DNA of 64,000 nucleotides from an uncultured Flavobacteriaceae bacterium (GTDB taxonomy: Bacteria; Bacteroidota; Bacteroidia; Flavobacteriales; Flavobacteriaceae), in the NCBI GenBank assembly GCA_947488435.1, contig CANKZG010000001.1, positions 186,001-250,000 on the forward strand, read 5' to 3'. Position numbers and translations under genes: made by a program. The notes below the pieces were generated by a model. It was not told where the DNA came from. It made no database searches and saw nothing but the letters and a program-made list of their open reading frames with translations. This document shows, piece after piece, positions 53,424 to 63,439 of this stretch (the first letter of the stretch is position 1; each line of letters begins with the position of its first letter).

Positions 53424-54773
53424 ATGTACTCCTATTGGAAACTTCATAAATTTCCAATTCTTATGATACTTTTAAGTATCATATTGTACAGTAGTTTCGC
53501 TTACGATCTTGTTCGCACAGATTTCATTAAGCTGTTTGCCTTATTTATAGCGCTATTCTTTCTTACGTACAAACTTATACAATTCGAAAAATTTAATTTT
53601 AAACTTCTTCTAGGGGCTGGCGTATTGTTTCGATTGATTTTTATCATTGCCACGCCCAATTTATCGCAGGATTTCTATCGATTTATTTGGGATGGGGAAT
53701 TGGTAAGACATTTTTCCAATCCTTATTTATATACCCCTGACACTTTAATTGCTCAAGGGGATTTATTCATTGCCAATTCGGAGGTTTTACATCAGAAAAT
53801 GGGAACCTTAAGTGCACGACATTTCTCCAACTACCCTCCGCTTAATCAATTAATTTTTGCACTGTCAACGTTATTTGCAGGAAAGAGTATTCTTGGAGCA
53901 GTTATTAGTATGCGCATCTTTATAATACTTGCCGATATTGGGATTGTATATTACGGCAGAAAGTTACTCCAAAACCTTAATCTTTCAAGGCATCTTATTT
54001 TTTGGTATTTCCTAAATCCTCTAGTTTTGATTGAACTTACAGGAAATTTACATTTTGAAGGTGTGATGCTATTCTTTTTTGTTTGGTCTATCTACCTTCT
54101 TACTCAAAAAAAATGGGCATTTGCAGCCGTAGTATATGCGCTATCTATTTCCGTAAAACTTGTTCCTCTTTTGTTTTTACCACTGTTCCTACGCTATTTT
54201 GGATTTAAAAAAAGTATTCCTTTTTACCTTGTTGTGGGAGGTACCATAATAGCTTTATTGATTCCTTTTTTCTCATCAGAATTTATTCACAACTATTCCG
54301 AGACAATAGGACTCTGGTTTTCTAATTTTGAATTTAATGCAGGATTCTATAATCTTATCAAACAAATTGCTGTAACTTTTGATGTAAAGGGATATCAACT
54401 CATTAAAATTTTTGGAAAAATCTCCCCTTTTCTAGTAATAGCAGTTACTATACTATTTACATTTTTCCGTAAGAACAATGACCCAAAAGTATTATTAACG
54501 TCCATGCTTTGGATACTGACCCTATACTATTTACAGGCTACAACGGTGCATCCCTGGTACATTATATTTCTCGTATTACTTACACTTTTTACACCCTATC
54601 GTTTCGCGTTGGTGTGGTCTTCTGCTGTAATATTAAGTTATTGGGCCTATGCTAACAGTGATTATCGAGAAAACTTATGGCTCCTATTACTTGAATATAT
54701 CTTGGTATATGGTTTTATTTTTTATGAAATGTATAAAATTAGACAGCTTAAATTATCATTTACTAAAAAATAA
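53424..54773 (+). CDS. Polytopic GT-C-type glycosyltransferase (mannosyltransferase-like)
   Basis: 449 residues with ten or more membrane segments. 'ATPNLSQDFYRFIWDGELV' in the first large loop carries the acidic Asp typical of GT-C enzymes, and 'GNLHFEGVMLFFFVWSIYL' follows. Such enzymes take a sugar from a polyprenyl-phosphate donor on the outer face of the inner membrane; PIG-M/GT87-like mannosyltransferases are the nearest pattern. It starts 2 bases after the CslA-like gene and is the last gene of the operon. Confidence 0.75.
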   Translation: MYSYWKLHKFPILMILLSIILYSSFAYDLVRTDFIKLFALFIALFFLTYKLIQFEKFNFKLLLGAGVLFRLIFIIATPNLSQDFYRFIWDGELVRHFSNPYLYTPDTLIAQGDLFIANSEVLHQKMGTLSARHFSNYPPLNQLIFALSTLFAGKSILGAVISMRIFIILADIGIVYYGRKLLQNLNLSRHLIFWYFLNPLVLIELTGNLHFEGVMLFFFVWSIYLLTQKKWAFAAVVYALSISVKLVPLLFLPLFLRYFGFKKSIPFYLVVGGTIIALLIPFFSSEFIHNYSETIGLWFSNFEFNAGFYNLIKQIAVTFDVKGYQLIKIFGKISPFLVIAVTILFTFFRKNNDPKVLLTSMLWILTLYYLQATTVHPWYIIFLVLLTLFTPYRFALVWSSAVILSYWAYANSDYRENLWLLLLEYILVYGFIFYEMYKIRQLKLSFTKK

Positions 54774-54804
54774 AGAATTAACTTTTCGTATTCAGTTTAA
54801 TTTG

Positions 54805-54812
54805 TACATTTG
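54805..54812 (+). promoter_or_regulatory. -7 promoter element of the arginine/proline operon
   Basis: TACATTTG, an exact TAnnTTTG match. The -33 region is only TTTT (54783-54786). The predicted transcription start, about 54816-54819, lies just before the leader ATG at 54820, so the leader peptide would be read from a nearly leaderless RNA. Confidence 0.55.
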
Positions 54813-54819
54813 AAATGTA

Positions 54820-54906
54820 ATGAAAGACAATAAAAACATAGCAATCTTAAAAAGAGCATTCGCTTCAGCTAGTTTTTTTACGCCCGTACGTCGCCGTCGC
54901 CCGTAA
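54820..54906 (+). CDS. Arginine/proline-rich leader peptide (candidate attenuator)
   Basis: A 28-codon ORF beginning MKDNKNIAILKRAFASASFF and ending TPVRRRRP then TAA. Four consecutive Arg codons (CGT CGC CGT CGC, 54889-54900) are flanked by Pro codons CCC (54883-54885) and CCG (54901-54903). It directly follows the operon promoter and precedes an operon that makes both arginine and proline. The Arg, final Pro and stop codons lie in the 5' arm and loop of a GC-rich hairpin, so a ribosome stalled there would disrupt it. This is the classical layout of a ribosome-mediated attenuator; it is too short for routine gene finding. Confidence 0.78.
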   Translation: MKDNKNIAILKRAFASASFFTPVRRRRP

Positions 54907-54945
54907 GGGTGCTTCCAATTATTGGAAATAGGTGAGTCCATTTCC
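54898..54945 (+). promoter_or_regulatory. Alternative hairpins of the arg/pro leader
   Basis: Three hairpins: H1 CGCCC (54898-54902) with GGGTG (54907-54911), covering the last Arg, Pro and stop codons; H2 TTCCAA (54913-54918) with TTGGAA (54922-54927); H3 GGAAATAGG (54924-54932) with CCATTTCC (54938-54945), one bulged A and a five-base loop. H2 and H3 share GGAA and cannot form together. No T-tract directly follows H3, so whether termination is intrinsic, Rho-dependent or translational is open. Confidence 0.5.
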
Positions 54946-54996
54946 GCAGTATTCCATCACACATTATTTAGTTTTTATCGTTTTAAAAAAATAGCA

Positions 54997-55617
54997 ATGA
55001 AAATCACTATTGCTGACGAGTCACATTTTAAGTACGCGCAAATAATTTGCGATACTATAGCAGATTCCGCCAAAGTTCGCGGAACGGGCATCGCCAAGAG
55101 AACACCAGATTACATTATTAAAAAATTACAAAATGGCAATGGTGTTATTGCTCTTGAAGGCGAGAAGTTTGCTGGGTTTTGTTATATCGAAGTTTGGGGG
55201 CACGAAAACTTTGTCGCTAATTCAGGTTTAATTGTACATCCAGATTTCAGAAATCAAGGACTTGCAAAAAAAATTAAAAAAGCCGTTTTCGAGCTATCTA
55301 TACAGAAATTCCCTAATGCCAAAATTTTTGGGATTACAACTGGTCTCCCGGTAATGAAAATTAACTATGAGTTAGGGTATAAACCTGTTACCTTCTCTGA
55401 GCTCACCGACGACCCTGAATTTTGGAAAGGTTGCCAGACCTGTAAAAACTTCGATGTACTCACAAGAACTGAGCAGCAAATGTGTCTTTGCACTGGCATG
55501 CTCTATGATCCTAAAACGGCAAAAATCAAAAGACAAAATAAAGTAAATGGAAAAGCATTTAAGCGATTAAAAAGTATTAAAGAACAACTGTTTCTTAAAA
55601 AAAAGAAAGATGAATAA
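54997..55617 (+). CDS. GNAT acyltransferase, probable first enzyme of arginine synthesis
   Basis: 206 residues from the ATG at 54997 (MKITIADESHFKYAQ). The in-frame ATG at 54922 lies in the leader hairpin region and is rejected. GNAT fold with acyl-CoA loop 'HPDFRNQGLAKKIKKAV' and 'ANSGLIVHPDFR'. A Cys-rich C-terminal segment ('GCQTCKNFDV', 'QQMCLCTGM') is typical of the Bacteroidota enzyme that starts arg operons. It probably acylates glutamate (acetyl or succinyl) in place of a canonical ArgA. The stop overlaps the argG start by 8 bases. Confidence 0.78.
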   Translation: MKITIADESHFKYAQIICDTIADSAKVRGTGIAKRTPDYIIKKLQNGNGVIALEGEKFAGFCYIEVWGHENFVANSGLIVHPDFRNQGLAKKIKKAVFELSIQKFPNAKIFGITTGLPVMKINYELGYKPVTFSELTDDPEFWKGCQTCKNFDVLTRTEQQMCLCTGMLYDPKTAKIKRQNKVNGKAFKRLKSIKEQLFLKKKKDE

Positions 55618-56803
55618 AAAATTAGTCTTAGCATATAGCGGAGGATTGGACACTTCTTATTGTGCCAAATATTTATCTCAGGATCAAGGTTATGAAGTAC
55701 ACGCAGTAAGTGTAAATACCGGGGGCTTTGATCCAGATGAAATTCTTGATATAAAGCAAAAGGCCCTGGCATTAGGCGCGAAGACCTACACCTCAATTGA
55801 TGCAGTACAAACCTTTTACGATACGGTGGTAAAGTTTCTCATTTTCGGAAACGTACTTAAAAACAATACCTATCCACTATCCGTTAGTGCAGAACGTATT
55901 GTGCAGGCCATTGCCATTGTGCAACATGCTAAAAAAATTGGTGCAACTTATATTGCGCATGGAAGTACTGGTGCTGGTAACGACCAAGTACGTTTTGATA
56001 TGATTTTTCAGATCATAGCTCCGGAAATTAAAATTATTACCCCAATCCGAGATGCAAAATTATCACGTGAAGCGGAGATCGCATATCTCCAAAAAAATGG
56101 TGTTGCTTACGCTTGGGAAAAAGCTAAATATTCTATCAATAGAGGGCTTTGGGGAACTTCTGTTGGCGGTGATGAAACCCTCACGTCAAACTTATCTTTG
56201 CCAGATAGTGCGTACCCAAGTCAACTACAGGAAATAACCCCATCTACGGTAAAACTGAGTTTTACCAAAGGAGAGTTCACGGCAATTGATGGTCAACACA
56301 ATACTCCGGTAAACAACATTATCGCGCTTAACAAACTTGCTTCTGCTTATGCCATCGGCAGGGATATTCATGTAGGAGATACCATTATAGGTATTAAAGG
56401 CAGGGTGGGGTTTGAAGCTCCTGCACCTCTAATTTTGATAAAAGCACATCACCTTTTGGAAAAACACACCTTAAGTAAATGGCAACAATTCCAGAAGGAG
56501 CAATTGGGTAATTTTTATGGAATGTTATTGCATGAAGGGAATTATTTAGATGAAGTTATGCGAAACATTGAAGATTTTCTTACCAGTACGCAAGAAAACG
56601 TTTCAGGTGACGTATTTGTTCAATTGCACCCGTATCGATTTGAACTTCAAGGTATCTCTTCCGATCACGATCTTATGAATGCTGCTTTTGGAAGCTATGG
56701 AGAAATGAACAAAGGATGGACAGCAGAAGATGCCAAAGGGTTTATCAAAATTCTTTCCAATTCGGGAAAAATTCACAAACATATAAATCAGAATCATGAT
56801 TAA
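55610..56803 (+). CDS. argG: Argininosuccinate synthase
   Basis: 397 residues with the ATP pyrophosphatase loop 'LAYSGGLDTSYCAKYL' at the N-terminus, 'IAHGSTGAGNDQVRFDM' and 'ALNKLASAYAIGRDIHVGD'. It joins citrulline and aspartate using ATP to give argininosuccinate, the penultimate step of arginine synthesis. The gene overlaps both neighbours by 8 bases. argH, the next enzyme, is not in the window and may lie beyond argE. Confidence 0.95.
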   Translation: MNKKLVLAYSGGLDTSYCAKYLSQDQGYEVHAVSVNTGGFDPDEILDIKQKALALGAKTYTSIDAVQTFYDTVVKFLIFGNVLKNNTYPLSVSAERIVQAIAIVQHAKKIGATYIAHGSTGAGNDQVRFDMIFQIIAPEIKIITPIRDAKLSREAEIAYLQKNGVAYAWEKAKYSINRGLWGTSVGGDETLTSNLSLPDSAYPSQLQEITPSTVKLSFTKGEFTAIDGQHNTPVNNIIALNKLASAYAIGRDIHVGDTIIGIKGRVGFEAPAPLILIKAHHLLEKHTLSKWQQFQKEQLGNFYGMLLHEGNYLDEVMRNIEDFLTSTQENVSGDVFVQLHPYRFELQGISSDHDLMNAAFGSYGEMNKGWTAEDAKGFIKILSNSGKIHKHINQNHD

Positions 56804-57770
56804 AATTGGTATTATAGGCGGCTCAGGATATACAGGAGGAGAGCTTATCCGTTTATTATTACAGCATCCTCAGGCCCAGATAGATTTCATCTACAGCACT
56901 ACTAAGGCCGGTAAGAAAATTAGTGTTGCGCATCCTGATGTTACTGGAATCACAGATTTGAAATTTACCGATCGTGTAAACCTTGATGTTGACCTTGTAT
57001 TTCTGTGCTTAGGTCATGGGAATTCTAAACTTTTTCTGGAAGAAAATAATTTCGCCGATCATACTAAAATTATAGACCTAAGTAATGATTTTCGTTTAAA
57101 AGAGGCCGCCAACTTAAATGGAAAACAATTTGTGTATGGTTTGCCAGAATTGCAGGAAGATAAAATTAAAAAAACAAAATATATTGCCAATCCTGGTTGC
57201 TTTGCTACCGCAATACAACTCGCTTTACTTCCCTTGGCAAAAGCTGAGTTGTTAAAAAATGATGTACATATTAATGCCGTAACAGGCAGTACTGGTGCAG
57301 GTATAAGATTATCTGACACGACTCATTTTAGTTGGAGAACCAATAATGTTTCATGGTACAAGCCTTTTACTCATCAACATCTGGGTGAAATAAATGAAAG
57401 CCTGGAGTTATTTCAGAAGCAACATGGCGTATTGCATTTTTTACCCAATCGAGGGAATTTTACACGAGGTATTTTTGCCACTGCTTACCTGCAATTTGAT
57501 GAGGATATAGAAACTGCAATTGAGTTATACAAAAGCTTTTATCAGGATGCTCCTTTTACGCAGTTATGTGACGAACCGATTACCTTAAAACAGGTTGTAA
57601 ACACCAATCAATGTCATATCCATCTTCATAAGCATCATAACACGCTATTGATCACTTCTGCAATAGATAATTTGTTGAAAGGCGCATCAGGGCAAGCCAT
57701 TCAGAATATGAATTTAATTTTTGGATTGAATCCAACTACGGGATTACAATTAAAGGCGGGAGTATTTTAA
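56796..57770 (+). CDS. argC: N-acyl-gamma-glutamyl-phosphate reductase
   Basis: 324 residues. The NADP-binding start 'IGIIGGSGYTGGELIRLLL' is followed by the catalytic Cys in 'YIANPGCFATAIQLAL', and the C-terminal dimer-region motif 'HFLPNRGNFTRGIFATAYLQ'. It reduces the acyl-glutamyl phosphate produced by ArgB to the semialdehyde. It overlaps argG by 8 bases and is followed after 14 bases by proC. Confidence 0.95.
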   Translation: MIKIGIIGGSGYTGGELIRLLLQHPQAQIDFIYSTTKAGKKISVAHPDVTGITDLKFTDRVNLDVDLVFLCLGHGNSKLFLEENNFADHTKIIDLSNDFRLKEAANLNGKQFVYGLPELQEDKIKKTKYIANPGCFATAIQLALLPLAKAELLKNDVHINAVTGSTGAGIRLSDTTHFSWRTNNVSWYKPFTHQHLGEINESLELFQKQHGVLHFLPNRGNFTRGIFATAYLQFDEDIETAIELYKSFYQDAPFTQLCDEPITLKQVVNTNQCHIHLHKHHNTLLITSAIDNLLKGASGQAIQNMNLIFGLNPTTGLQLKAGVF

Positions 57771-57784
57771 TTAAAAAAATAAGC

Positions 57785-58579
57785 ATGAAAATAGCAATTA
57801 TAGGAGCAGGGAATTTAGGCGTAGCAATCGCCAAAGGTATTTTACACTCAAATGGTGCAACCTCAATGTACCTTACCAAACGTAATATTAGTAGCATAAA
57901 AGACTTTGAAAAATATGGAAATGTAACGGTCACAAGTGATAATAGAGCAGCAGTAGAACATACAAATATTCTAATTTTTGCAGTTCAACCAGGGCATTTT
58001 GCAAAAATACTACTTGAAATTAAAGACGTATTGACGGAAAATCATGTTATAATATCCACCATTACTGGATTCAATATCGACAAAATTGAAGCAATTATTG
58101 GAACCGCTTATCCCATAATTCGAAGTATGCCTAATACTGCTATTTCTGTAGGACAATCGATGACTTGCATGTGTAGTAACAATGAGGGAGGAAAAAGTAT
58201 TACCCTCGCAAAAGCTATTTTTAATCGTATGGGGCATTCTTTAGAAATTCCTGAAGAGCAAATGCAAGCGGCAACAGTAATCTGCGCTAGTGGTATTGCT
58301 TTCTGGATGCGACTCATTAGGGCTACCACCCAAGGTGCAATTCAGTTAGGTTTTGATGCCAAGGAGGCTCAAGAATTGGCAATGCATACCTGTAATGGCG
58401 CGGCAAGCTTACTCATTGAATCAGGGAATCATCCAGAACAAGAAATAGATCGTGTAACTACACCGAAAGGTTGCACCATTGAAGGTTTAAATGAAATGGA
58501 ACATCAAGGGCTCAGTTCCTCATTAATACAAGGTATTGTGAGTTCTTTTGATAAAATTAGTCAGATTAAAAACAAATAA
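57785..58579 (+). CDS. proC: Pyrroline-5-carboxylate reductase
   Basis: 264 residues: Rossmann start 'IAIIGAGNLGVAIAKGIL', 'PIIRSMPNTAISVGQSMTC' and C-terminal 'VTTPKGCTIEGLNEMEHQG', all P5CR signatures. It performs the last step of proline synthesis using NAD(P)H. Its insertion between argC and argD shows that arginine and proline genes are interleaved in one operon. Confidence 0.94.
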   Translation: MKIAIIGAGNLGVAIAKGILHSNGATSMYLTKRNISSIKDFEKYGNVTVTSDNRAAVEHTNILIFAVQPGHFAKILLEIKDVLTENHVIISTITGFNIDKIEAIIGTAYPIIRSMPNTAISVGQSMTCMCSNNEGGKSITLAKAIFNRMGHSLEIPEEQMQAATVICASGIAFWMRLIRATTQGAIQLGFDAKEAQELAMHTCNGAASLLIESGNHPEQEIDRVTTPKGCTIEGLNEMEHQGLSSSLIQGIVSSFDKISQIKNK

Positions 58580-58613
58580 ATTATCTCCGAGGTAAGGTTT
58601 AAAAAGCAATAAA

Positions 58614-59741
58614 ATGGAATTATTTAATGTATATCCGCTATACGATGTTACCCCAGTTTCCGCCAATGGAAGTACAATTATCGACGAAAATGGTAAAAAA
58701 TACCTAGATCTTTATGGTGGTCATGCTGTAATATCCATAGGACATGGGCATCCACATTATGTACATCGCTTAAAATCACAAGTAGACAAAATTGGCTTTT
58801 ACAGTAATGCAGTTAAAAATCCGCTGCAAAACGAGTTAGCACAAAAGCTTGGTAAATTATCCGGCTGCGAAAATTATAAGCTATTTCTATGTAACTCTGG
58901 TGCGGAAGCTAATGAAAATGCACTCAAACTAGCCTCTTTTCACACTGGTAAATCCAAAGTAGTTGCTTTTAAAAATGGTTTTCACGGGAGGACTTCCGCA
59001 GCGGTTGCAAGTACAGATAACGAAAAAATAAATGCTCCTTTAAACAAGCAACAAAAGGTTACTATTTTACCATTAAATGATCTGGCTGCGTTTAAAGCAG
59101 CAATCATTAAAGAAGATGTATGCGCAGTAATTATAGAAGCTATACAAGGAGTAGGCGGATTGGATGAGCCTACTTCAGCATTCTTTCAACAAATAGCAGC
59201 CTTGTGTAAGCTTTACAACGTGGTACTCATTGCAGATGAAGTACAGTGTGGTTTTGGAAGAAGCGGAAAATTCTTTGGTTTTCAACACCATGACGTAATT
59301 CCAGATATTATAAGTATCGCTAAAGGCATGGGTAATGGTTTTCCAGTTGGAGGTATTCTTATCCACGATAAAATTAAAGCCTCTTTCGGATTGCTGGGAA
59401 CAACTTTTGGTGGAAATCATTTGGCATGCGCCGCTTCCTTAGCAGTATTGGAAGTCTTAGAGCGAGAAAATCTCATTGAAAATGCAATAGAAACAGGCGT
59501 TTATTTTCAACAAAGAGCTTCAGAAATTCCTCAAATTAAGAGCACTAAAGGGAAAGGATTAATGTTAGGTCTTGTTTTTGATTTTGACGTTGCGCCGCTA
59601 CGAAAACGCTTAATCTATAATCAAAACATATTCACTGGGAGTGCTAAAGATAAAAATGTATTGCGTATCCTACCGGCTTTATCTATTACCAAAACCGCTA
59701 TTGATAATTTTTTTAACGCCCTAAAAACAGAATTACTATGA
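58614..59741 (+). CDS. argD: Acylornithine aminotransferase
   Basis: 375 residues of PLP fold type I: 'YLDLYGGHAVISIGHGHPHY', 'LFLCNSGAEANENALKLA', 'LIADEVQCGFGRSGKFF' and the PLP-binding Lys237 in 'ISIAKGMGNGFPVGG'. It transaminates the acylglutamate semialdehyde to acylornithine. The stop overlaps the proA start by 4 bases. The narrower database name (acetyl- versus succinylornithine) depends on the acyl group used, discussed with argF'. Confidence 0.94.
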   Translation: MELFNVYPLYDVTPVSANGSTIIDENGKKYLDLYGGHAVISIGHGHPHYVHRLKSQVDKIGFYSNAVKNPLQNELAQKLGKLSGCENYKLFLCNSGAEANENALKLASFHTGKSKVVAFKNGFHGRTSAAVASTDNEKINAPLNKQQKVTILPLNDLAAFKAAIIKEDVCAVIIEAIQGVGGLDEPTSAFFQQIAALCKLYNVVLIADEVQCGFGRSGKFFGFQHHDVIPDIISIAKGMGNGFPVGGILIHDKIKASFGLLGTTFGGNHLACAASLAVLEVLERENLIENAIETGVYFQQRASEIPQIKSTKGKGLMLGLVFDFDVAPLRKRLIYNQNIFTGSAKDKNVLRILPALSITKTAIDNFFNALKTELL

Positions 59742-60934
59742 GTGTTGTACTTACCATAAAGGAACGCAATTCGGTTTTAGAGACCATGGCAAAAAAGATC
59801 AATACCACGCGAAGCAAAATCATTGCAGCTAATCGTAAGGATATGATGGGGTATACCGGTAATGATATCGCTATGAGAGATCGATTAAAGGTAGATGAAG
59901 CCAAAGTTGATGGCATGATCGATGTGTTATTGCAATTGGTAAACATGGAGGATCCTTTGGGCGTTGAGCGTTTTAATTTTCTTCATGAAAATGGAATACA
60001 CATCACGAATAAAACCGCTCCTTTTGGTACCGTATTAATTATCTACGAATCTCGGCCCGATGTAACCATAGAAGCGGCCGGTATTGCTTTTAAATCAGGC
60101 AATCGTATTTTACTCAAAGGAGGGAAAGAATCCCTTCATAGTAATTTATTATTAGTTCAATTATGGCATAAGAGCCTAGAAGAACATCAGATTACGCATA
60201 AGTGGGTTAATTATCTTCAATTTGATAGGGAACAAACACAAAAATTTTTGGCAAAGCCTACCGAAAAAATTGATCTAATTGTGCCCCGAGGAGGAGAAAA
60301 ACTTATCACTTTTGTAAAAAAGAATGCAACCTGCCCAGTAATTGTAAGTGGTAGAGGGAATAATTTTGTGTATGTAGCTAAAGATGCTGATACATCTATG
60401 GCACTTCAGATTATTATTAATGCAAAGACAAGTAAAATATCGGCTTGTAATGCACTTGACAAAGTGTTGATTAATGCAAATCATCCGGACAAAGAAGGTT
60501 TTATAAAAACGCTTACTATAGGGCTTCAAAAACACAACGTAACTATTATAGGAGATCCTGTTTTGACAAAACAATTTGGCTTTAAGGAGATTGCGAACGA
60601 ACAACTATGGTACGAGGAGTTTTTAGATTTTAAAATTGTAATTGGGGAAGTGCCTTCCACGGAAGAAGCTATAGAAAAAATCAATACTTACGGTGGAGGT
60701 CATTCCGCCGCAATAGTTACTAAAAATTCGAAGGAAGCAGAAGCCTTTATGACTGGCGTAGACGCAGCTGCAGTTTACCATAATGCTTCTACACGCTTTA
60801 CGGATGGAGGGGAATTTGGACTTGGTGGAGAACTAGCAATCAGCACGGATAAATTACATCAAAGGGGCCCTATTGGATTACAACACCTAGTAACCAACAA
60901 ATGGTTCGTCCATGGAGAGGGACAAATACGATAA
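59738..60934 (+). CDS. proA: Glutamate-5-semialdehyde dehydrogenase
   Basis: 398 residues of the aldehyde dehydrogenase fold: 'FGTVLIIYESRPDVTIEAAG', 'LIVPRGGEKLITFVKKNATC', the catalytic Cys in 'KTSKISACNALDKVLI', and 'NASTRFTDGGEFGLGGE'. It reduces glutamyl-5-phosphate to the semialdehyde in proline synthesis. It pairs with proB, which follows after 22 bases in the opposite order to many operons. Confidence 0.95.
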   Translation: MSVVLTIKERNSVLETMAKKINTTRSKIIAANRKDMMGYTGNDIAMRDRLKVDEAKVDGMIDVLLQLVNMEDPLGVERFNFLHENGIHITNKTAPFGTVLIIYESRPDVTIEAAGIAFKSGNRILLKGGKESLHSNLLLVQLWHKSLEEHQITHKWVNYLQFDREQTQKFLAKPTEKIDLIVPRGGEKLITFVKKNATCPVIVSGRGNNFVYVAKDADTSMALQIIINAKTSKISACNALDKVLINANHPDKEGFIKTLTIGLQKHNVTIIGDPVLTKQFGFKEIANEQLWYEEFLDFKIVIGEVPSTEEAIEKINTYGGGHSAAIVTKNSKEAEAFMTGVDAAAVYHNASTRFTDGGEFGLGGELAISTDKLHQRGPIGLQHLVTNKWFVHGEGQIR

Positions 60935-60956
60935 AAAATATTTAGCGAAATAACTC

Positions 60957-61718
60957 ATGCATAAAAAGAGGATTTTATTAAAAATTGGTTCCAATACTTT
61001 AACAAAAGAAACCAATCAAATTTCCAGAGGGAAAGTTGAGGACATTGCGCGACAAATTGCGACGCTTCAAGATGCTTATGAATTTATAATTGTAAGTTCA
61101 GGTGCTATTGCAGCAGCTAAGCAATTTGTAAAGTTAGAACATAATGGGGCTGATATTGATGTAAAACAGGCTCTTGCTGCCATTGGTCAGCCACATCTCA
61201 TGCGGATTTTTCAAGAAAATTTTAGAGAGCTAGGTTTGTCTACGTCACAATGTTTATTGTCGTACTTGGATTTTGAAAACGCAGTGGCAAAGGCCAATAT
61301 TAAAACTACAATTAACGTACTGATTGCCAATAATTTTATCCCGATAATTAATGAAAATGATACCGTAGCTACAGATGAAATTCAATTTGGAGATAATGAT
61401 AAGCTAGCGGCCTTGACAGCCACTTTGCTTCAAGCAGACCTCCTAATTATTGCTACAAATACCAATGGAATTTATACTAAAGAATCATTAGCTCAAAATA
61501 CGCCCAGAACAATCCATAATATAACCGATATTAATATGCTTAAAAAAGAAGTAAGCAATACAACTTCTTCCCATGGTACGGGAGGTATGTCTTCTAAATT
61601 GGAAGCAGTAACTATAGCTCAGAAAGCTGCTATAGAGACTTGGGTTGTAAATGGGCTTCAGGACAATTTTATCGTTAATGCATTAAACAATCGAACTGCA
61701 TTTACCAAAATAATTTAA
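60957..61718 (+). CDS. proB: Glutamate 5-kinase, without PUA domain
   Basis: 253 residues of the amino-acid kinase fold: 'ILLKIGSNTLTKETNQISR', 'IIVSSGAIAAAKQFVKLE', 'NENDTVATDEIQFGDNDKLA' and 'GTGGMSSKLEAVTIAQKA'. It phosphorylates glutamate as the first step of proline synthesis. The C-terminal PUA domain of E. coli ProB (367 residues) is absent; that domain contributes to oligomer state and regulation, so feedback control may differ. Both neighbours are closely spaced. Confidence 0.94.
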   Translation: MHKKRILLKIGSNTLTKETNQISRGKVEDIARQIATLQDAYEFIIVSSGAIAAAKQFVKLEHNGADIDVKQALAAIGQPHLMRIFQENFRELGLSTSQCLLSYLDFENAVAKANIKTTINVLIANNFIPIINENDTVATDEIQFGDNDKLAALTATLLQADLLIIATNTNGIYTKESLAQNTPRTIHNITDINMLKKEVSNTTSSHGTGGMSSKLEAVTIAQKAAIETWVVNGLQDNFIVNALNNRTAFTKII

Positions 61719-61721
61719 CAC

Positions 61722-62663
61722 ATGAAACACTTTCTTTCTATAAACAATATTGATTCGCTTGCTGCGTGGGTAGATGAAGCAAGAAATTTAAAAGTCAATC
61801 CGCAAGCAGATAAACAACTCGGTTCAAATAAAACGATTGGACTATTGTTTTTTAATAATAGTTTAAGGACACGATTGAGCACTCAGAAGGCAGCTATGAA
61901 TTTAGGCATGGAAGTCATGGTCATGAATTTTGGCAATGAAGGATGGGCACTCGAATATGGGGACGGTACAATTATGAACGAAGGTACTTCCGAGCATATC
62001 AAAGAAGCCGCTCAAGTAGTATCTCAGTATTGCGATATTATCGCCATACGAGCATTTGCCTCTCTTAACAATAAAACACAGGATGAAGCGGAAGTGGTAT
62101 TGGAAAATTTTGCGAAGTATGCTACCGTTCCCATAGTGAATATGGAAAGTTCCACAGGACACCCACTGCAGGCATTTACCGATGCTATTACCCTTGCCGA
62201 ACATCACCAAAAATCACGTCCTAAAATAGTGTTATCCTGGGCGCCACATCCTAAAGCACTCCCACATGCCGTTGCAAATTCTTTTGTGCAAATGATGCAA
62301 CATCAAGAGGCCGAATTTATTATCACACATCCCGAGGGTTATGAACTAAATCCAGAAATCACTAAAGGTGTAACTATTGAATACGATCAGGCTAAAGCAC
62401 TTAAAGACGCCGATTTTGTATATGTTAAAAATTGGAGCAGCTACCATTCTTATGGACAAGTTCTTCATCAAAATCCTAAATGGACCATGACTACAGAGAA
62501 ATTGGGGGCAGCAAAATTCATGCATTGTCTGCCAGTTAGACGAAATGTTGTTGTTGCAGATGCCGTTTTAGATAGCTCCAACTCCTTGGTTATTGAACAG
62601 GCAAATAATAGAACTTATGCAGCGCAATTGGTGTTGAAAAAAATATTAGAAAAAGCACTATGA
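61722..62663 (+). CDS. argF': N-succinylornithine carbamoyltransferase (ArgF' type)
   Basis: 313 residues. The carbamoyl-phosphate loop is 'NNSLRTRLSTQKA' in place of the usual SxRT form, 'WAPHPKALPHAVANSF' matches the proline-rich region of the acylornithine-specific branch, and 'MHCLPVRRNVVVADAVL' is the C-terminal signature. The residue that sets acyl specificity is Ser90 in 'NEGTSEHIKE'. From the literature as I recall it, Glu here (Xanthomonas) selects acetylornithine, Pro (Bacteroides fragilis) succinylornithine, and Glu-to-Ser converts to succinyl. The stop overlaps argB by 4 bases. Confidence 0.88.
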   Translation: MKHFLSINNIDSLAAWVDEARNLKVNPQADKQLGSNKTIGLLFFNNSLRTRLSTQKAAMNLGMEVMVMNFGNEGWALEYGDGTIMNEGTSEHIKEAAQVVSQYCDIIAIRAFASLNNKTQDEAEVVLENFAKYATVPIVNMESSTGHPLQAFTDAITLAEHHQKSRPKIVLSWAPHPKALPHAVANSFVQMMQHQEAEFIITHPEGYELNPEITKGVTIEYDQAKALKDADFVYVKNWSSYHSYGQVLHQNPKWTMTTEKLGAAKFMHCLPVRRNVVVADAVLDSSNSLVIEQANNRTYAAQLVLKKILEKAL

Positions 62664-63439
62664 AACCAAAATTATCTGTTGTAAAAATAGGGGGTAATGT
62701 TATCGAAGATAAAACAGCGTTAGCAAACTTCTTAAACGCATTTTCTAAAATTAAAGGAGCAAAACTCTTGGTGCACGGTGGTGGAAAAAAAGCAACTTTA
62801 CTCAGTAAACAAATGGGCGTTGAACCTAAGCTCATAGATGGTAGGCGAATAACCAATGCTGCTACTCTAGAAATTATTACTATGGTTTACGCAGGTTTAG
62901 CAAATAAAAATATTGTTGCACAACTGCAAGCGAATGCATGTAATGCTATTGGTCTCAGCGGTGCTGACGGGAATACCATATTAGCACATAAACGACCTAT
63001 TACCACTATTGATTATGGGTATGTGGGTGATATAGATCGAATTAACCATAAAGCAATTAGTAGGCTTTTAAATGCCGCTTTTGTCCCTGTTTTTTGCGCC
63101 ATGAGTCACGATGGAAAAGGGCAACTCTTAAATACCAACGCAGATACTATCGCCGCTTCATTAGCTATAGGAATGAGCAATGAATTTGAAACTACCTTAT
63201 ATTATTGCTTTGAAAAAAATGGAGTATTGACCGATGTTTCGGATGAAAACTCCATCCTTACCCATATCACTTCTGAAACATATCAAGACCTCATACAAAA
63301 ACGTCTTATCTCTGATGGCATGCTTCCTAAATTAAAGAATTGTTTCCATGCACTTAAAAATGGTGTTAACAGCGTTTGTGTTGGTTCAATTTCCATGCTT
63401 AATAACCCTACAGATCCATTCACTAAAATTAGCTTATGA
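62660..63439 (+). CDS. argB: N-acylglutamate kinase
   Basis: 259 residues of the amino-acid kinase fold: 'VVKIGGNVIEDKTALANFL', 'LLVHGGGKKATLLSKQMG', 'AIGLSGADGNTILAHKR' and the nucleotide region 'NTNADTIAASLAI'. It phosphorylates N-acylglutamate. The N-terminal helix that gives arginine-sensitive hexamers in some bacteria is absent, so classical feedback inhibition by arginine may be missing; the leader attenuator could replace it. The ends overlap both neighbours by 4 bases. Confidence 0.94.
   Translation: MKPKLSVVKIGGNVIEDKTALANFLNAFSKIKGAKLLVHGGGKKATLLSKQMGVEPKLIDGRRITNAATLEIITMVYAGLANKNIVAQLQANACNAIGLSGADGNTILAHKRPITTIDYGYVGDIDRINHKAISRLLNAAFVPVFCAMSHDGKGQLLNTNADTIAASLAIGMSNEFETTLYYCFEKNGVLTDVSDENSILTHITSETYQDLIQKRLISDGMLPKLKNCFHALKNGVNSVCVGSISMLNNPTDPFTKISL

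Follow-up and report, generated by a model that had tools for sequence, protein, structure and literature searches.

The arginine and proline biosynthesis operon of an uncultured Flavobacteriaceae bacterium is preceded by a short open reading frame (ORF) that ends in a run of arginine codons, and the last of these codons lies in the first of two hairpins, H1 and H2, that covary across the family. The ORF is real and conserved and, judging by its coding signature in relatives, is probably translated into a leader peptide. The reading that we favour, and consider fairly probable, is that it forms an arginine-sensing attenuator, in which the position of the ribosome on the leader would report the level of charged tRNA-Arg. 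The features are listed in Table 1; positions refer to the window, which is the whole stretch of 64,000 nucleotides that was analysed.

Table 1. Features of the leader region and the operon that follows it, in window coordinates
Feature	Position	Strand	Basis and remarks
TACATTTG, -7 promoter element, Bacteroidota sigma-A type	54805..54812	+	Read directly; predicted transcription start 54817
Leader ORF, MKDNKNIAILKRAFASASFFTPVRRRRP-stop	54820..54906	+	28 codons and TAA; read directly; predicted 5′ UTR about 3 nt
Four Arg codons in a row, CGT CGC CGT CGC	54889..54900	+	Read directly
Hairpin H1, CGCCC-GTAA-GGGTG	54898..54911	+	93.5% of cells paired, 92 sequences
Alternative hairpin TTCCAA-TTA-TTGGAA, competing with H2	54913..54927	+	Predicted in the window species; not conserved in the family
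Hairpin H2, GGAAAT-A-GG-UGAGU-CC-ATTTCC	54924..54945	+	Helices 97.0 and 96.7% of cells paired, 92 sequences
GNAT-family acyltransferase, first gene of the operon	54997..55617	+	Pfam PF00583, E 5.1e-07
argG, argC, proC, argD, proA, proB, argF-type carbamoyltransferase, argB	55610..63439	+	NCBIfam matches

Results

The leader ORF and its predicted promoter

The leader gene is tiny and unannotated, and its product ends in PVRRRRP*. The original prediction had picked out a 28-codon ORF with this Pro-Val-Arg-Arg-Arg-Arg-Pro-stop ending, an exact TAnnTTTG element ahead of it, and a run of CGN codons that would be unlikely by chance. As an observation it was confirmed as a whole, with the support for the promoter element coming from its spacing and that for the codon run from the relatives described below.

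By itself the TAnnTTTG motif is no evidence for a promoter; there were 95 matches in the window, where 93.6 were expected. The box is meaningful because its spacing to the start codon is kept in relatives, not because the motif occurs: of 49 distinct related leaders that carry an exact TAnnTTTG at most 40 nt upstream, 36 have a gap of 7 nt between box and ATG. In the parts of the Flavobacterium psychrophilum study cited here, the box is located at -12 to -5 (PMC9723704), and transcription of the leader is therefore predicted to start 3 nt 5′ of the ATG. Within the Flavobacterium species of the cited papers, as far as the sections cited go, 5′ leaders as short as about 3 nt are uncommon: leaderless transcripts make up 5.5% of the mRNAs of F. 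psychrophilum (PMC9723704), and 5′ leaders exceed 10 nt in 87% of the predicted transcripts of F. johnsoniae (PMC6847099).

Coding signature in related genomes

Of 149 family genomes, 97 contained a GNAT homologue and the other 52 gave no GNAT match; the upstream regions of all 97 loci were taken for comparison. A simple H2 core pattern was present in 87 of them. In all but one of these 87 relatives (86) the frame that carries the Arg codons stayed open for 20 codons or more, against 22 and 27 for the other two frames, and an ATG, GTG or TTG lay at least 8 codons upstream in 86 (ATG in 49/87). In this comparison of the regions upstream of GNAT-argG operons, a check that the original prediction had proposed, the short ORF and its Arg codons are kept.

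Codon and substitution statistics were obtained from the 49 distinct leaders whose exact box lies within 40 nt, drawn from the 129 of 202 loci that have a suitable ATG. The ratio pN/pS was 0.63 in frame and 1.02 and 1.07 in the shifted frames, over 42 overlapping and non-independent pairs; without the last four codons the values were 0.62 in frame and 0.88 and 0.91 shifted. This is a modest signal. CGC or CGT accounted for 186 of the 205 leader Arg codons. In the GNAT genes of the 97 loci these two codons made up 168 of 753 Arg codons, and AGA was the commonest.

The Arg codons sit at the end of the leader in relatives too. RRP-stop is a frequent ending, although in the scan of named genomes reported below R-P-stop was fixed by the search pattern, so that its frequency there is not independent. 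A common RRP-stop ending would suit an arrest peptide resembling TnaC, in which the nascent RRRP-stop chain of the leader would itself bind arginine or stall at Pro-stop; but some relatives end in VRA, VRV, PLGV or PLGA and still keep H1, and the N-terminal parts of the leaders are poorly conserved. An arrest peptide seems highly improbable.

Two covarying hairpins at the end of the leader

The conserved RNA element overlaps the end of the leader ORF and then extends 3′ of it. The 5′ arm of H1 is made up of the final Arg codon plus two bases from the Pro codon, and in the window its loop contains the leader stop codon. On an alignment of 92 sequences (A2), H1 and H2 together paired in 95.6% of cells, with double changes at 9 of 13 pairs. 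None of 500 shuffled versions of A2 reached the observed values, and sliding the pairing partners against each other abolished the signal. H2 contributed double changes at 7 of its 8 pairs; H1 had changes on both sides in 2 of 5 pairs, and its outermost pair was unpaired in 26 of the 92 sequences. In two loci (L018 and L024) the H1 stem has become CGCAC/GTGCG by compensatory change, and there the peptide ends in VRA or VRV.

A2 had been fitted to a covariance model, but the MAFFT alignment (A1) agreed with it: 93.5% of cells were paired and 8 of 13 pairs were doubly changed. Run unaided on A1, RNAalifold recovered H2 together with the inner two pairs of H1. A third alignment, made on H2 only (A3), contained two stem types out of register, and no model was made from it. 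Folding of the whole leader in the window was unremarkable (z -0.78), so that the evidence here is the covariation and not the folding of a single sequence.

Parts of H2 are nearly invariant, namely the bulged A (84 of 92 sequences), the GG/CC pairs and the UGNGU loop, and this conservation of bulge and loop suggests that something binds it. Near-constant sequence is typical of a bound RNA element, and the nearly invariant bulge and loop would also suit a scheme in which the hairpins themselves do the sensing by binding a protein or small molecule, with the ORF as a passenger. Against such a scheme stand the Arg frame that is open in all but one of 87 relatives, the bias of the leader codons towards CGC and CGT, and the second, upstream Arg leader present in many relatives, and we give it very little weight.

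Distribution and specificity of the element

A covariance model (R1) was built from A1, whose 60 rows were hand-picked from the 86 loci listed, which are the 87 loci minus L041. It found the element in 92 of the 97 loci, including 32 of the 37 outside the training set; the loci without a match were L050, L091, L096, L097 and L098. The match in the window covers positions 54884-54960 with 64.6 bits, and the source genome gave this one match among the 150 candidates scored out of 1908. A survey of 395 genomes of the phylum yielded 19 matches at E ≤ 0.01, with 16 of them within Flavobacteriaceae. The other three, weak matches from different families of the phylum (L115-L117; E 0.0017-0.0086), look by eye like ordinary coding DNA and were counted as false. 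No member of the genus g127, which is probably Flavobacterium, was among the survey matches, and 19 g127 genomes were listed without one.

An exact-pattern scan of named public genomes returned at least 117 matching stretches. The 80 titles listed from it were all Bacteroidota, and most of their genus names are ones that we take to be Flavobacteriaceae. Among the 117 matches listed, GNAT starts 47-104 nt 3′ of the element in 113, and the distance from H2 to GNAT is 47-65 nt in 106 of these; three of the remaining four stretches end before GNAT, and the fourth (L128) has argG 731 nt on.

Two broader identities were set aside. The pattern TAGGTGNGTCC occurs four times in the source genome and only the arg copy has the H2 fold, which speaks against H2 being a module shared by many operons. 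A T-box or other Rfam riboswitch was dropped on finding no match to a curated covariance model: at the thresholds of Rfam 15 the window contained tRNA only, the element lay near three chance-level snoRNA/miRNA matches (E 4.4-5.4), and six related loci gave no match.

A competing hairpin in the window and the question of a terminator

H1 is followed in the window by TTCCAA (54913-54918), which can pair with TTGGAA (54922-54927), the latter overlapping H2. The predicted probability of H2 is 0.16 when the ribosome has been released and 0.90 when it is stalled. The downstream hairpins had been predicted to be mutually exclusive, and this holds for the present sequence but not for the family, since over 87 relatives the competing helix between linker and arm averaged 3.84 bp, compared with 3.87 bp in shuffled linkers. 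Partition-function folding of 202 sequences gave mean H2 probabilities of 0.65 released, 0.64 stalled and 0.69 with the ribosome at the stop codon; from released to stalled, the probability showed a rise of more than 0.3 in 22 sequences, a fall of more than 0.3 in 29, and smaller changes in 151. Among loci with the same type of H2 as the window, a competing helix of at least 5 bp was predicted in 9 of 18, where 5.3 were expected, which is faintly suggestive.

A classical attenuator of the trp type would have H2 as the intrinsic terminator and the competing hairpin permitted by stalling or release of the ribosome. The predicted switch in the window and the nine loci just mentioned are in line with this, as are the 7 of 87 relatives in which at least 6 T fall within 8 nt after H2. 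The window and most relatives have no such tract, however, and H2 was rejected as an intrinsic terminator for that reason. In addition, the competing helix is at chance level over the 87 loci and the changes over the 202 sequences go in either direction; formation of H2 on stalling, as predicted in the window, is the wrong direction for a terminator; and H2 shows more conservation in its loop and bulge than a terminator requires. No terminator-like site was found in 54500-55700, where 0.8 would be expected by chance, and no intrinsic terminator of the kind seen in trp, his and leu attenuators is evident before the first gene. We regard the trp-type scheme as unlikely.

Arginine as the probable signal

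The operon has the order GNAT-argG-argC-proC-argD-proA-proB-argF-argB. This is the fused arg/pro operon of the original prediction, with gene families identified by NCBIfam and Pfam matches, of which argG, argD and the carbamoyltransferase score under the curated cut-offs of their best NCBIfam models.

It had also been proposed that the leader senses proline along with arginine, a shortage of either stalling the ribosome and raising expression. With the last four codons set aside, proline makes up 9.6% of the leader residues, compared with 3.1% of those in GNAT, and proC follows in 42 of the 45 loci that have at least 5 kb of downstream sequence; both would suit dual sensing. The number of Pro codons does not, however, track proA/proB. 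Leaders averaged 1.78 Pro codons with these genes (n=18) and 2.22 without them (n=23), phylogeny not corrected. The comparison covered 41 of these 45 loci, themselves taken from 117 listed, and a locus was scored as lacking proA/proB when they did not appear in the stretch retrieved, where argD and argF were visible, so that pro genes further downstream would be missed. Moreover, the terminal Pro codon belongs to the H1 stem and is lost where the stem compensates, as in L018 and L024. The leader is therefore read as an arginine sensor, and joint sensing of the two amino acids, which these results leave unsupported, is most improbable. What stands of the earlier interpretation is a leader with an Arg run ahead of an arg/pro operon, overlapping a conserved RNA; the proline co-sensing does not.

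We also searched for ArgR (PF01316), which was found in none of 100 family genomes, the source genome included, and was detected in 9 of 14 controls, Bacteroides among them. Membership of an ArgR regulon was rejected on this result.

Tandem leaders and other lineages

A second short ORF, mostly Arg-ending, lies about 300 nt 5′ of GNAT in 38 of the 97 loci (found with a loose pattern; a few are doubtful); MKTLKNKIRCTIPGLPVRSRRR in L042 is an example. A TA..TTT box precedes its start by 3-7 nt, and 157 of the 185 Arg codons in the 38 promoter-proximal ORFs are CGC or CGT. In such tandem arrangements (L033, L042, L060 and others) the ORF lies at about -300 to -225 from GNAT, and downstream of it come a U-rich stretch and a covarying hairpin, H0. 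When the whole leader of 28 loci was aligned and folded with RNAalifold, H0 was placed between the Arg codons of both ORFs, with double changes at 6 of 7 pairs. In 27 of these 28 loci the downstream ORF reads NTG at the same alignment column, with G as first letter in 12, T in 12 and A in 3, as a start codon would. L050 retains the upstream leader ORF and has no match to H1/H2.

In g127 a different leader was seen in 8 of 9 loci (L243-L250), with TSPEVR(M/T)L in common, CGG codons, and a position directly after a TACTTTTG box; the ninth locus (L257) is without it, and L091, also a member of g127, has no H1/H2 match. Arg-rich ORFs precede GNAT in two other families of the order (L252; L255 and L261). 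Because Arg leaders or ORFs precede GNAT in these lineages as well, leader peptides ahead of the GNAT-arg operon may be older than H1/H2. Family f68 (L253, L254, L256) has a conserved ORF of 35 residues (MKQVN.YTP.ERPVLTIGIG...), and a GCGGGAATCCCTGCTTATGCC stretch that comes after it is conserved too. In family f69 (L258-L260, genomes of 0.6 Mb) the GNAT match is part of one uninterrupted frame, about 590-630 residues long, that may represent an ArgG fusion.

Discussion

In the attenuator that we favour, transcription would start about 3 nt ahead of the leader ATG, and with so short a distance the ribosome would load almost at the 5′ end of the transcript. When charged tRNA-Arg is ample, the ribosome would pass the CGY codons, reach the stop codon and release, after which H1 could form beside H2 and expression of the operon would be kept down. 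When arginine is short, the ribosome would stall on the CGY codons and cover the 5′ arm of H1; with H1 blocked, the operon would be expressed. A ribosome waiting at the stop codon would sit in the loop of H1, which could form only once it had left. This geometry is deduced from the sequence combined with a ribosome footprint of the usual size. With no evident terminator and no family-wide competing helix, the signal is more likely to be passed on through H1 and H2 as such, perhaps to a bound factor, to Rho or to translation of GNAT.

The trp, his and leu operons carry ribosome-mediated attenuators in which a leader ORF contains codons for the product of the operon. The flavobacterial leader resembles them in being a short ORF between promoter and operon, as its coding signature indicates and with translation predicted; in its run of codons for a product of the operon, arginine; in lying near its promoter; and in having regulatory codons that overlap a conserved hairpin, through the 5′ arm of H1. 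It differs from them in that no intrinsic terminator was found and the alternative helix predicted in the window is not conserved in the family.

By analogy, the nearest working precedent is orf34 of Salmonella speF-potE, a short upstream ORF whose consecutive Arg codons sense arginine via ribosome pausing, pausing at low arginine or at the stop codon selecting a downstream hairpin (PMC6386406). On the parts of that paper cited here, the likeness is one of ORF and codons, with no RNA structure known in common; the sensing Arg codons of orf34 are in mid-ORF, and orf34 controls ornithine decarboxylase, whereas the flavobacterial leader precedes arginine synthesis. The leader had no Pfam match up to an E of 10, and so none to DUF2618, the family of orf34, although very short queries are hard for HMMER. 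Arg codons in a leader peptide also sense arginine limitation in Staphylococcus aureus rbfL, as outlined in PMC13009471, but there the ribosome-binding site of a regulator gene is blocked and the codons are AGA/AGG. The LEU element upstream of leuA in Actinobacteria likewise joins a codon run in a leader peptide to a conserved RNA structure, its action being described as unclear in the sections cited (PMC1262725); phylum, amino acid and structure are all different.

Closer in ancestry is F. psychrophilum, of the same family as the source genome, where leader-peptide attenuation has been proposed ahead of amino-acid operons such as pheA and hisG; the sections in question name these and others, arg not being among them (PMC9723704). 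In searches of an open-access library we found no description of a leader peptide for arginine biosynthesis in Bacteroidota.

For a leader-peptide system, H1 and H2 are unusual in that neither a terminator nor a conserved competing helix was found. One possibility, which we put forward tentatively, is a compact two-hairpin read-out that does without a terminator/antiterminator switch, in which H2 would recruit a factor (a protein, the Rho machinery or RNA polymerase) in a lineage where no ArgR was found and sister genera have tandem Arg leaders. If true, it would represent a new class of read-out for attenuators. H1/H2 is in any case a strongly covarying RNA without a match in Rfam 15, preceding 92 of the 97 GNAT-arg loci. 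The leader system supplies a defined set of mutations for tests, and with leader, H1 and H2 in hand the control of arginine synthesis in Flavobacteriaceae, which have no recognisable ArgR, becomes testable.
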